Shown: positions 59,902-64,000 of the stretch, one piece after another
Numbering within the stretch: position 1 is the first letter of the stretch
Layout: every line of letters starts with the position of its first letter
Assembly: GCA_900316965.1 (NCBI GenBank)
Contig: ONEY01000001.1
Location: forward strand, 124,001 to 188,000
From: an uncultured Bacteroidales bacterium
GTDB lineage: Bacteria; Bacteroidota; Bacteroidia; Bacteroidales; P3
Direction of reading: 5' to 3'
Length of the DNA: 64,000 nucleotides
The notes under the pieces: model-generated
The model's database searches: none
Seen by the model: the letters and a program-made list of their open reading frames with translations, nothing else
What the model was told of the DNA's origin: nothing
Position numbers and translations under genes: made by a program

Positions 59902-61167
59902 ATGAAAGATATATTTGAACGCATTAAAGAGTCGACAGGCGGTCCTTTAGGACAATATCGCAAACTTGCCGACGGTTATTTTTATTTCCCCAAACTCGAA
60001 GGAGAGCTGGGACCAGAAATGACATTCAACGGAAAAAAAGTGTTGAACTGGAGTCTCAACAATTATCTTGGCTTGGCCAACAATCCTGAGGTTCGTGCCG
60101 CTGATGAGGAAGGCGCTCGCCGTTGGGGACTTGCCTACCCTATGGGTGCACGTATGATGAGTGGCCACACCGCTCTGCACGAAGAGGTAGAGGCTATGCT
60201 TTGCGAATACACTCACAAAAAATATGGCTATCTGCTTAATTTTGGCTACCAAGGCCAAATAAGTATCTTGGACACCATCGTGAGTCTTCGCGATGTCATC
60301 GTGTACGACAGTGAAGCTCACGCTTGCCTCATTGACGGCTTCCGCGTGACAGGTGCCAAACGTTTCAAATACCAGCATAACGACATCGAAAGCCTGCGCA
60401 AACAATTAACCCAAGCCACAGCATTGGCCGAGAAACAGGGCGGCGGCATTCTTGTAGCCACTGAAGGCGTTTATGGTATGGAAGGTGACCTCGGAGCATT
60501 GGACAAAATCGTAGCCCTTAAGAAGGAATTCAACTTCCGTATTCTTATAGACGACGCCCATGGCATGGGTGTTATGGGCCCTGAAGGTCGTGGTACACAT
60601 ACCCATTTCAACTGTGCTGACGATATCGACCTCTATTTCTGCGCTTTTGCCAAAACTATGGCAATCATTGGTGGTTTCATTGGCTGCAATGATGAGGACA
60701 TCATCACCTATCTACGTTTCAATATGCGTTCGCAAATTTATGCCAAGAGCTTGCCTATGCCTATCGTATGGGGTGTCAAACGTCGTCTGGAGATTATCAA
60801 CCAGCATCCCGAATACCGCGAAAAACTATGGGAGCTCTCCAACTACCTACAGAAATCGCTCCAAGCCGAAGGCCTTAACACTGGCGTCACCGAGTCTCCA
60901 ATTACACCCGTATTCTTCCCTGGCGATGTCAACCAAGGTACCAATGTCGTTGTCGACCTGCGCGAAAACTACGGAATCTTCTGCTCAATTGTAGTATATC
61001 CCGTTGTGCCTAAAGGTCAGATTATGCTGCGCATAATACCTACTGCTGTCCACACCATGGAGCACGCCAACCGCACAATCGAAGTGTTCCGTGAGGTGAA
61101 AAAGCGTCTTGACGAAGGCGTATACAACAAGCCTATGCCTGATATGCATATTATTAAGCATAAATAA
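59902..61167 (+). CDS. Alpha-oxoamine synthase, likely cysteate C-acyltransferase
   Basis: A 421-aa PLP-dependent fold-type I enzyme of the alpha-oxoamine synthase family, which condenses an acyl thioester with an amino acid and releases CO2. Visible PLP residues are His140 (SEAHACLIDG), Asp217 and His220 (LIDDAHGMG) and the Schiff-base Lys251 (AFAKTMAIIGG); the Asp-to-Lys spacing of 34 equals that of serine palmitoyltransferase. Relatives include SPT, 8-amino-7-oxononanoate synthase, KBL and the cysteate fatty acyltransferase of sulfonolipid makers. The next gene encodes a threonine-synthase-like enzyme suited to make cysteate, and an SDR follows, so cysteate acyltransferase giving 3-ketocapnine is the best reading. 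A KBL or SPT role cannot be excluded. It has its own upstream -7 box. Confidence 0.78.
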   Translation: MKDIFERIKESTGGPLGQYRKLADGYFYFPKLEGELGPEMTFNGKKVLNWSLNNYLGLANNPEVRAADEEGARRWGLAYPMGARMMSGHTALHEEVEAMLCEYTHKKYGYLLNFGYQGQISILDTIVSLRDVIVYDSEAHACLIDGFRVTGAKRFKYQHNDIESLRKQLTQATALAEKQGGGILVATEGVYGMEGDLGALDKIVALKKEFNFRILIDDAHGMGVMGPEGRGTHTHFNCADDIDLYFCAFAKTMAIIGGFIGCNDEDIITYLRFNMRSQIYAKSLPMPIVWGVKRRLEIINQHPEYREKLWELSNYLQKSLQAEGLNTGVTESPITPVFFPGDVNQGTNVVVDLRENYGIFCSIVVYPVVPKGQIMLRIIPTAVHTMEHANRTIEVFREVKKRLDEGVYNKPMPDMHIIKHK

Positions 61168-61168
61168 A

Positions 61169-62389
61169 ATGAAGTATCAACTTAGATGTAAAAAATGTGG
61201 CAAAGTCATATCAGACTTTGCCACTTGGTTTAAACAAGATCAACAATGTGAATGCGGCAGCGGCTACGCCGAGGTTGAATATACCGACAACACACCGTTC
61301 CATTTCAGCGATCCTGCAAACAACTCATACCAAGACTATTATTTCGATTTGCTGCCAATTGTTAAACGCGAGAACATAGTCAGTTATGGCGAGGGGCTTA
61401 TACCCATGGAACGATGGGGCAACCTCGAAGCCTATGCAAAAAGCAAAGGAATAGATTGCAAGGTATTTGTATACCGCAACGACCAAAATGACGGTAGCGG
61501 ATCGTTCAAAGATATCAGCGCCGCTCTAGCAGCCTCTGTGCTTAAAGAGAATGGCATAAAGGAATACTGCCTGGCGTCGACTGGCAATGCCGGCGTTGCT
61601 TTCGCAACATACTGTGCCAAGGCCGGCATACGTTTCACCGAATTCGCGCCCAACTGCATAGACCCCGCTACAGTTGCGGCCATACGCAAAGTTGGACAAC
61701 CAGTAATAATATCCAAGGGCGGATATGGTGACGCAAAAGCAGAGGCCGCCACCTATCATAAAGAAAAGCATGTACTTATCAGCGGAGGTAATACCGACCC
61801 ACTGCGTATCGAGTCGAAACGTCTGCTAGCCTACGAATGCCTTCGCCAAATAGGTCAGCTGCCAACAGTATATATGCAGGCTGTGGCTGGAGGCACCTCT
61901 CCCCTGGCTTTCGAAAAAGGGTTTCGCGACTTGAAACGCACTGGCATGATTGATGCCAACGCCTTACTGCCTCGCATGCTGCTTGTACAACAAGACGAAT
62001 GCGACCCAATGGTTTCTGCTTGGGAGAAGGCAACATCTGCTGGATTCCCAGCAGGATGGGAAAAAGACTACGAAGCCAAGAAGAACATAAAGACCAAAAT
62101 AGGCATTCTTACCACGGCAAATCCGGGTAATTATCCGCTCGTCGCCCCACTGGTACACAAGTCTAATGGAACATTCATACGTGTAGCAGAAGCGGAACTG
62201 CCTCAATATGGCAAAGAGATGAGACTATCCCGCGGCACCCTTATGGGGCCTGCCTCTATGGTATGCTATGCAGGATTCTTCCAAGCTGTGGATAAGGGTT
62301 TGATAAATAGTGGCGACACCATTCTTCTCAACACGGGTGAAGGGAGCGACCGTGCTCAATGGTTCAAGGATTTGGTAGATGAAAACTAG
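61169..62389 (+). CDS. Threonine-synthase-like PLP enzyme, likely cysteate synthase
   Basis: A 406-aa fold-type II PLP enzyme. An N-terminal zinc ribbon (CKKCGKV and CECGSG, residues 7-29) precedes a threonine-synthase-like body with Lys114 in GSFKDIS (Schiff base), the phosphate-cradle STGNAGVAFATY and a late GEGSDRAQW. Canonical threonine synthase has SFKDR here; the Arg is Ile. Archaeal cysteate synthase evolved from threonine synthase and makes cysteate from phosphoserine and sulfite. Because an alpha-oxoamine synthase lies 1 bp upstream, I infer cysteate synthase for sulfonolipid. A plain threonine synthase is the alternative. The ATG at 61169 is chosen; the longer frame would overlap the upstream gene by 59 bp. 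Confidence 0.75.
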   Translation: MKYQLRCKKCGKVISDFATWFKQDQQCECGSGYAEVEYTDNTPFHFSDPANNSYQDYYFDLLPIVKRENIVSYGEGLIPMERWGNLEAYAKSKGIDCKVFVYRNDQNDGSGSFKDISAALAASVLKENGIKEYCLASTGNAGVAFATYCAKAGIRFTEFAPNCIDPATVAAIRKVGQPVIISKGGYGDAKAEAATYHKEKHVLISGGNTDPLRIESKRLLAYECLRQIGQLPTVYMQAVAGGTSPLAFEKGFRDLKRTGMIDANALLPRMLLVQQDECDPMVSAWEKATSAGFPAGWEKDYEAKKNIKTKIGILTTANPGNYPLVAPLVHKSNGTFIRVAEAELPQYGKEMRLSRGTLMGPASMVCYAGFFQAVDKGLINSGDTILLNTGEGSDRAQWFKDLVDEN

Positions 62390-62421: not shown

Positions 62422-63222
62422 ATGAAGAAATTTGACAATAAAGTAGTATGGATTACAGGAGCCTCGTCGGGCATCGGCGAGGCCACTGCATATCAATTTG
62501 CACAAGAAGGCGCAAAAGTAATCGTGACAGCACTTGAGGCCGATTTGCTTGAAAAAGTCGTGGCTCATTGCATAGAACTTGGGGCTCCCGATGCGGCTGC
62601 ATTGCCCTTCGACTTGTCCCAAAGCAATCAGCTAGATGCTCTGGCTGAACAAGCATGGAATCAGTTCGGTAGTATTGACATACTATACAATAATGCCGGT
62701 ATCAGCCAACGCGGCACCACTGTCGAGACAGATATGCGCGTCATTCGCAAAGTGATGGACATCGACTATTACGCACCTGTCATCCTGACCAAAAACATAT
62801 TGCCGCGAATGATAGAGCGCGGTGGTGGTCAATTGGTGGTAACAACCAGCATTGCCGGACGTTTCGGATTTCCGTTGCGTTGTGCATACAGTTCGGCAAA
62901 GCATGCTCTGTATGGTTTTTTTGAGACTGTTCAGGCTGAGACCTACGACCAAAACATTCGCGTCACCATCGTTTGCCCAGGTCGTGTACAGACAAATATT
63001 TCCAAGTATGCTCTTGAGAAAGACGGCAAACAACATGGCAAAATGGACGCAGGCCAAGCCGGTGGCGTTACACCTCAGCAGGCTGCTGAAAAAATTGTCA
63101 AAGCAGTATACAAGAAAAAACGCGAGGTCCTCGTAGGTCGCTACGAGCTGCTGATGGCCTACATCAAACAGTATTGTCCTGGCCTCGCCGCAAAGTTAGC
63201 AAGGAAAATCAAGCCGATGTAA
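62422..63222 (+). CDS. Short-chain dehydrogenase, likely 3-ketocapnine reductase
   Basis: A 266-aa classical SDR. The NAD(P)-binding motif is TGASSGIGE (about 12-20), with NNAG near 90. The catalytic Ser143, Tyr156 and Lys160 (YSSAK) are all present. The C-terminus is basic and hydrophobic (KQYCPGLAAKLARKIKPM), resembling membrane-associated 3-ketodihydrosphingosine reductases. It starts 32 bp after the cysteate-synthase-like gene, on the same strand. In the proposed pathway it would reduce the 3-keto group of the condensation product to give capnine. Substrate not shown. Confidence 0.8.
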   Translation: MKKFDNKVVWITGASSGIGEATAYQFAQEGAKVIVTALEADLLEKVVAHCIELGAPDAAALPFDLSQSNQLDALAEQAWNQFGSIDILYNNAGISQRGTTVETDMRVIRKVMDIDYYAPVILTKNILPRMIERGGGQLVVTTSIAGRFGFPLRCAYSSAKHALYGFFETVQAETYDQNIRVTIVCPGRVQTNISKYALEKDGKQHGKMDAGQAGGVTPQQAAEKIVKAVYKKKREVLVGRYELLMAYIKQYCPGLAAKLARKIKPM

Positions 63223-63400: not shown

Positions 63401-64000
63401 TTATTTGAACAAGGCGTCAATTTTGTCTTTATAGGCAGCTGTAACGTTTCGGCGGATAAGTTTTTGTGTGGGGGTGAGGAACTTGTTGGCCTCGCTCCAT
63501 GTGTCGGCGACTAAAACAAAACGTTTCACTTGTTCAGTGACACCCAATTCAGCGTTGTATTTATCCACAACCTTCTGATAGCGGGCTATTACAGTCTTGT
63601 CTGAAATCATCTCTTCCTTGTCAGCAGCATTGACACCATGACGCCTGCACCAGTCTTTTAGCATATCAAAATCCGGAGCAATGACCGCAGCGGCAAATTT
63701 TTGGTCAGCACCCACAACCATCATATCAAGTATGAATGGCGACTGTTTCATTTTTTCCTCAATGACTTCAGGATTGATGTATTTGCCCATAGAGGTTTTG
63801 AACATACTCTTTGTACGACCTGTGATAAAAAGGTAACCGTCAGGGTCGAAATAACCTGTATCGCCAGTGTGGAACCAGCCATCACTGTCAATAGCCTCGG
63901 CGGTAAGTTCAGGCTGATTGTAGTAGCCTTTCATTACATTACCTCCTCGACATTGAATCTCGTTGGTGTCAGAAGCTATACGAACCTCTATCTTCCTCAT
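63401..64000 (-). CDS. Long-chain fatty acid-CoA/ACP ligase, C-terminal part
   Basis: The last 200 residues of an AMP-forming acyl ligase (ANL superfamily), open at the window edge. The visible part has GGNVMKGYYNQPELTAEAI, the hinge motif GWFHTGDTGYFDPDGYLFITGR (split: WFHTGDTGY, FDPDGYLFITGR) and the KYINPEVIEEKMKQSP segment. The end resembles long-chain FadD15-type enzymes of about 600 aa. It activates free fatty acids with ATP. It converges on the sulfonolipid-type genes, so a role in supplying acyl groups is possible, but it is on the opposite strand. Confidence 0.88.
   Translation of the reverse strand: MRKIEVRIASDTNEIQCRGGNVMKGYYNQPELTAEAIDSDGWFHTGDTGYFDPDGYLFITGRTKSMFKTSMGKYINPEVIEEKMKQSPFILDMMVVGADQKFAAAVIAPDFDMLKDWCRRHGVNAADKEEMISDKTVIARYQKVVDKYNAELGVTEQVKRFVLVADTWSEANKFLTPTQKLIRRNVTAAYKDKIDALFK

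Follow-up and report, generated by a model that had tools for sequence, protein, structure and literature searches.

The window, i.e., the whole stretch of 64,000 nucleotides that was analysed, contains a gene for a threonine-synthase-like enzyme (referred to below as the window gene), which lies among the following features:

59902-61167, plus strand: alpha-oxoamine synthase (AOS) of 421 aa, a cysteate acyltransferase of the SulA/CapB type as judged by PDB matches and active-site residues
61169-62389, plus strand: window gene, encoding a threonine-synthase-like PLP enzyme of 406 aa, proposed as a third type of cysteate synthase on the basis of profile scores, an alignment and a structural model
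61197-61224, plus strand: possible RNA hairpin, an 11-bp perfect inverted repeat with a 6-base loop, in codons 10-19 of the window gene
62422-63222, plus strand: short-chain dehydrogenase (SDR) of 266 aa (PF00106; NF004825, 241 bits vs 215), candidate 3-ketocapnine reductase (CapC/KCR role)
63401-64000, minus strand: C-terminal part of an AMP-forming acyl ligase (PF23562; NF038343, 143 bits), cut by the window end

The window gene and its neighbours

The original prediction described a threonine synthase-like ORF with an altered PLP-lysine motif, and the description proved exact: the coordinates were confirmed (61169-62389, plus strand, 406 aa and a stop), and the motif reads S112-F113-K114-D115-I116 (SFKDI). 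Lys114 occupies the Schiff-base position in the alignment and is present in 110 of 110 family members. The zinc-ribbon-like N-terminus, which was said to be kept, is indeed there, with a CxxC at Cys 7 and 10 followed by C27-E-C29. By its PF00291 score (134.4 bits vs a gathering score of 35), the lysine in place and an AlphaFold2 model with a mean pLDDT of 92 (pTM 0.91; 50 aligned sequences), the predicted protein belongs to the PALP superfamily of fold type II PLP enzymes. The structures nearest to the model are the threonine synthases 2c2b (Z 41.7) and 1v7c (Z 39.3), and 9k3c (CapA2 of Alistipes finegoldii) follows with Z 38.1 over 369 residues at 19% identity; in these comparisons, a Z gap below 1 counts as a tie, and a common fold is no proof of function.

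The inverted repeat at 61197-61224 is possibly a 5' coding RNA hairpin. All 11 pairs (G-T allowed) form in 14 of the 16 relatives checked, the exceptions being L046 (8 pairs) and L061 (4 pairs), and in L047 different bases make the pairs. Among 19 close sequences, synonymous sites are most conserved across codons 9-19 (0.83 vs a mean of 0.54 for the gene), and codon 14, which lies in the loop, is free (0.30). An Rfam scan gave no match for the hairpin, and a promoter scan returned nothing usable.

The linkage to an oxoamine synthase, also part of the original prediction, is confirmed: the AOS ends at 61167, 1 bp upstream of the window gene. In the PDB, it matches 7u7h best (E 2.5e-174, 60% identical), next comes 28eh, a 'cysteate-C-fatty acyltransferase' by name (E 5.9e-155), and serine palmitoyltransferase lies far behind them (E 1.5e-70). 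From residue numbering and name, we infer that 7u7h is the SulA of PMC9304779. Passages of that paper give Lys281 as the residue that tells SulA from serine palmitoyltransferase (Spt has Ala) and name N53, H140, D217, H220, K251 and R376 as further site residues of SulA. The AOS has every one of them (Lys281 corresponds to K282 and R376 to Arg377), and the listed residues, including the diagnostic Lys, are kept in 113 of 113 aligned rows. Both its sequence and the diagnostic Lys281 place the AOS in SulA/CapB.

On the other side, the SDR starts 32 bp downstream of the window gene. Both linkages recur in other genomes: among the best 80 of 351 relatives, an AOS lies directly upstream of the window-gene orthologue in 54 of the 69 named loci with enough flank, an SDR lies directly downstream in 51 of 70 such loci, and the two occur together in 37 of 60 named loci. 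The convergent acyl ligase at 63401-64000 is a doubtful member of the pathway because its linkage is retained in few relatives only.

Two further observations concern these neighbourhoods. The SulA-like protein of the window (59902-61167) and those of L033, L035, L036, L038, L039, L040, L046 and L049 are 97-100% identical in amino acid sequence; in the same set, fourfold sites are only ~40-55% identical, and the neighbouring putative cysteate synthase is 78-90% identical. SulA is under unusually strong purifying selection in the window and these close relatives. In addition, a glyoxalase-fold protein of 350-420 aa is encoded near the SulA-like gene or the window-gene orthologue in six loci (L230:5237-6328, with a PF00903 match; L231:13965-15041; L233:13141-14196; L234:12207-13259; L094:5242-6504; and L051:15007-16101); three of these proteins were compared with NCBIfam at 1e-30 and had no match.

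Comparison with threonine synthases and known cysteate synthases

Several properties of the window protein would suit a divergent threonine synthase that uses O-phosphohomoserine and water: among NCBIfam models, it scores highest with a threonine synthase (NF006050), its top structural match is 2c2b, its N-terminal cysteines are common to some threonine synthases, and a search of the genome (2.39 Mb in 39 contigs, 95.7% complete) detected no PALP-family gene besides the window gene. However, all threonine synthase models score under their cut-offs (NF006050, 151 vs 303 bits; NF006205, 108 vs 358; NF004170, 107 vs 421; NF005035, 83.5 vs 301; TIGR00260, 56.2 vs 167.1). Moreover, a search for homoserine dehydrogenase (PF00742) gave no match in the window genome, whereas the same search was positive in all 14 controls and found the enzyme in 82 of 149 Bacteroidales genomes; without it, the window enzyme has no phosphohomoserine to act on. 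The original prediction was to fall if the genome had no other threonine synthase and the window gene complemented a thrC mutant. The first half of this applies, as no other threonine synthase is encoded there (no TIGR00260 match at 1e-10), but the homoserine dehydrogenase is missing as well.

Relatives also speak against the threonine synthase reading. Of the 31 genomes that carry the window-gene family, 17 encode a distinct threonine synthase that exceeds the TIGR00260 cut-off, while the family's own genes reach at most ~102 bits vs 167.1; homoserine dehydrogenase occurs in 13 of the 31 and is absent from 18. Together with the loss of the Arg two positions after the lysine and the operon-like order with SulA, this makes a threonine synthase scarcely credible. 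Identity as a threonine synthase was rejected because of pathway, model scores and the lost Arg, and the window protein is almost certainly not such an enzyme.

As a side observation, the window genome (G000) combines a single PALP gene with the lack of homoserine dehydrogenase and of a CysH/CysD match. The organism thus apparently has no TrpB, CysK, IlvA or ThrC, which points to a broad amino-acid dependence on its host or community.

The active site was compared in an alignment of 110 members of the window-gene family, 30 TIGR03844-type enzymes and 12 threonine synthases from other Bacteroidia (P0001 numbering). As originally claimed, Arg is canonical two residues after the Schiff-base Lys in threonine synthases (12 of 12), and it is found there in none of the 110 family members and none of the 30 TIGR03844-type enzymes. 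The change from Arg to Ile was thus correctly noticed, and the loss of Arg extends to the whole family; the Ile, however, does not hold as a signature, for position 116 varies within the family (I in 73, V in 23, K in 7, A in 3, L in 3 and N in 1), and the matching position of the TIGR03844 type is T in 28 and C in 2. Judging from the alignment, it is the loss of Arg that the window-gene family and the TIGR03844 type have in common. G207, Q237 and A362 are also fixed in both types and absent from the 12 threonine synthases, and A238 occurs in 109 of 110 family members, 29 of 30 TIGR03844-type enzymes and no threonine synthase. Two positions argue against a simple pairing of the types: C278 is common to the window-gene family and threonine synthases but not to the TIGR03844 type, and the Schiff-base Lys is followed by D in the family and by E in the TIGR03844 type.

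A tree of 68 proteins built by a quick method (of which 36 come from the family of 110 and 15 from the 30 CapA2-type enzymes) separates the window-gene family, the CapA2 type and the threonine synthases as groups. The family joins the CapA2 type with an SH-aLRT of 90, but the CapA2 branch is long (4.77), and the family's own support is 49. The relation of the two types in the tree is tentative, and the residues common to both may be either inherited or convergent.

CapA2 (TIGR03844; PDB 9k3c, with the same sequence in 9k3o) resembles the window protein in fold, in the proposed reaction, in co-occurrence with SulA in Bacteroidales, in the loss of Arg after FK[DE] and in the residues G207, Q237-A238 and A362. 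The two also differ. The window protein reaches 97.4 bits to TIGR03844 vs a cut-off of 324.9, and membership in that family was rejected on this score; four other members of the window-gene family reach 94-123 bits. CapA2 has FKE where the window-gene family has FKD, nearly all CapA2-type rows lack the N-terminal cysteines, and the two are never found in the same genome. With the zinc-ribbon threonine synthases (NF006050, TIGR00260), the window protein has in common the fold, the PLP site and N-terminal cysteines found in part of that family, and it differs from them in falling under every cut-off, at Arg+2 and positions 207, 237 and 238, and in the missing pathway partner.

The CapA of Capnocytophaga is reportedly cystathionine beta-synthase-like, a description attributed to Liu et al. 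2022. The window protein would carry out the same reaction, from phosphoserine to cysteate, but its profile matches are to threonine synthases and not to CBS: TIGR01137 is absent among the 20 families that match the window protein (E <= 1e-3), and a search of the window genome with TIGR01137 at E <= 1e-50 was negative. In a search of 65 genomes, TIGR01137 matches do not separate CBS-like CapA from CysK. The conversion of phosphoserine to cysteate by Capnocytophaga CapA is described in passages of PMC10191378, which also state that the cysteate synthase of Alistipes and Odoribacter is homologous to the archaeal enzyme and not to that CapA. A literature search, mostly outside subscription journals, found no description of a Bacteroidales cysteate synthase that resembles threonine synthase. 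The difference from the known systems lies in the enzyme lineage; reaction, pathway and SulA have been described before.

Distribution and sulfite supply among Bacteroidales

The window-gene family is present in 31 of 149 Bacteroidales genomes. TIGR03844 cysteate synthase exceeds its cut-off in 36 of them, to which one partial match (311.9 bits) was added to give 37, and the overlap between the two sets is zero (naive hypergeometric P 4e-5, kinship ignored). A SulA-like gene is found in 108 of the 149 genomes, including 27 of the 31 with the window-gene family and 35 of the 37 with the TIGR03844 type; for example, G113, whose SulA is nearest to 7u7h (76% identical), carries the TIGR03844 type and not the window-gene family. 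Where both are present, the window-gene orthologue lies within 10 kb of the SulA-like gene on the same contig in 13 of 27 genomes. No SulA-like match was found in 4 of the 31 genomes with the family (G022, G036, G084 and G127), two of which are only 77% and 82% complete. Among 246 Bacteroidia genomes other than the window genome, there were only 12 weaker family matches (108-165 bits), and the nine of these that were typed all best fit threonine synthase models. Within the sampled genomes, the family looks confined to Bacteroidales.

SulA does not require the window gene, as 46 of the 108 SulA-bearing genomes have neither type. In several of these 46 genomes, SulA lies near BamD-like, DFP, DUF4835 and RecN-like genes. 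In twelve SulA loci without the window-gene family, no PALP enzyme was identified beside SulA, and a BamD-like gene was near it in 10 of the 12.

Wider neighbourhoods were inspected in 19 loci from the Bacteroidales genome set and in 16 named loci. The most extensive cluster is that of L230 (G062), in which an AOS (on the other strand), an untyped ORF, the glyoxalase-fold protein, CysH, CysD, CysN, a CitMHS-type transporter, CysQ and the window-gene orthologue follow one another; these four Cys proteins were named by NCBIfam, each above at least one cut-off. Clustering with L230 proteins indicates the same gene clusters in L231 (G104), with a short-chain dehydrogenase in addition. Typed likewise by clustering, L241 (G022) has CysH, CysD and CysN together with the window-gene orthologue, and L233 has an AOS, CysH, a transporter and the orthologue. 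CysH lies between the AOS and the orthologue in L228, L232 and L234 (L228 and L234 by clustering with L232). In the remaining loci of the Bacteroidales genome set, no sulfate-to-sulfite gene was found near the orthologue, and no sulfite reductase was identified among the typed neighbour proteins, which do not comprise every ORF.

A PF01507 match (CysH or CysD) and the window-gene orthologue are both present in 23 genomes, and in 8 of these the distance is 10 kb or less, where 0.27 would be expected (P ~1e-10 under random placement, kinship ignored); in G010, the PF01507 neighbour is of CysD size. For the 37 CapA2-type genes, no such proximity (PF01507 at 10 kb or less) was seen among the matches listed. 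The window genome itself has no PF01507 match at E <= 1e-20, which speaks against a complete route in its organism; sulfite would have to come from outside or from some other source. PF01507 is also absent, among the matches listed, from G001, G041, G055, G081, G108, G115 and G120, all of which carry the window-gene family.

The lack of a visible sulfite source in the window genome, and the logic of fold-type II beta-replacement, would permit a nucleophile other than sulfite, i.e., the window enzyme might make another beta-substituted alanine, which the neighbouring AOS would use instead of cysteate. This is extremely improbable, given that the AOS keeps all SulA residues including Lys281, that the neighbours in relatives are sulfite-making genes, and that purified SulA takes cysteate and not serine or phosphoserine, according to passages of PMC9304779.

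Alternatively, the window enzyme might serve cysteine synthesis as an O-phosphoserine sulfhydrylase. The genome has no other PALP enzyme, hence no CysK, and it encodes SerC, the maker of O-phosphoserine (NF003764, 430 bits vs 253), so that the cell might need such a source of cysteine. Nonetheless, this role is very improbable: the orthologues are linked to SulA and to the sulfite-making CysH, CysD, CysN and CysQ, the family is absent exactly where CapA2 is present, and TIGR01137/CysK-like genes also occur in genomes that carry the family (e.g., G041, G108 and G132).

Proposed pathway and its meaning

Because of the SulA-like neighbour, the mutual exclusion with CapA2, the sulfite-generating genes of relatives and the missing homoserine dehydrogenase, the window gene very probably encodes a cysteate synthase (O-phosphoserine plus sulfite) for sulfonolipid synthesis. 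The switch to phosphoserine and sulfite suggested in the original prediction is supported by the same evidence.

Formation of an aldimine, loss of phosphate and addition of sulfite are steps of fold-type II PLP chemistry. For the window organism, we infer the following substrates, chemistry, product and formation of sulfonolipid. O-phospho-L-serine, supplied by SerC, would form an external aldimine and displace Lys114; the bound substrate would then lose its phosphate by beta-elimination to give an aminoacrylate, to which sulfite would add, and L-cysteate would be released. The SulA-like neighbour would join cysteate to a fatty acyl group by condensation, giving 3-ketocapnine, which the neighbouring SDR would reduce to capnine, the base of sulfonolipids.

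In a broader context, the window-gene family probably represents a third, so far undescribed lineage of Bacteroidales cysteate synthase (threonine-synthase-like, zinc-ribbon, FKD[I/V/K]), which would replace CapA2 genome by genome, be built into clusters leading from sulfate via sulfite and cysteate to capnine, and be fed by outside sulfite in reduced host-associated members such as the window organism. In this organism, a gut or rumen bacterium, cysteate would be the building block of sulfur-containing membrane lipids, and the enzyme that most probably makes it stands apart from the two types of cysteate synthase known in such bacteria.

According to PMC9304779 and PMC11211663, sulfonolipids have effects on inflammation, on gliding motility and on the development of choanoflagellates. 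Genome surveys of sulfonolipids rest on the known cysteate synthases. If the window-gene family makes cysteate, such surveys overlook many Bacteroidales of rumen and gut, and PLP fold type II would have given rise to cysteate synthase three or more times, by separate origin or by divergence. These enzymes, two lineages of which lack the Arg behind the PLP lysine, would also form a comparative set for the switch from phosphohomoserine and water to phosphoserine and sulfite.
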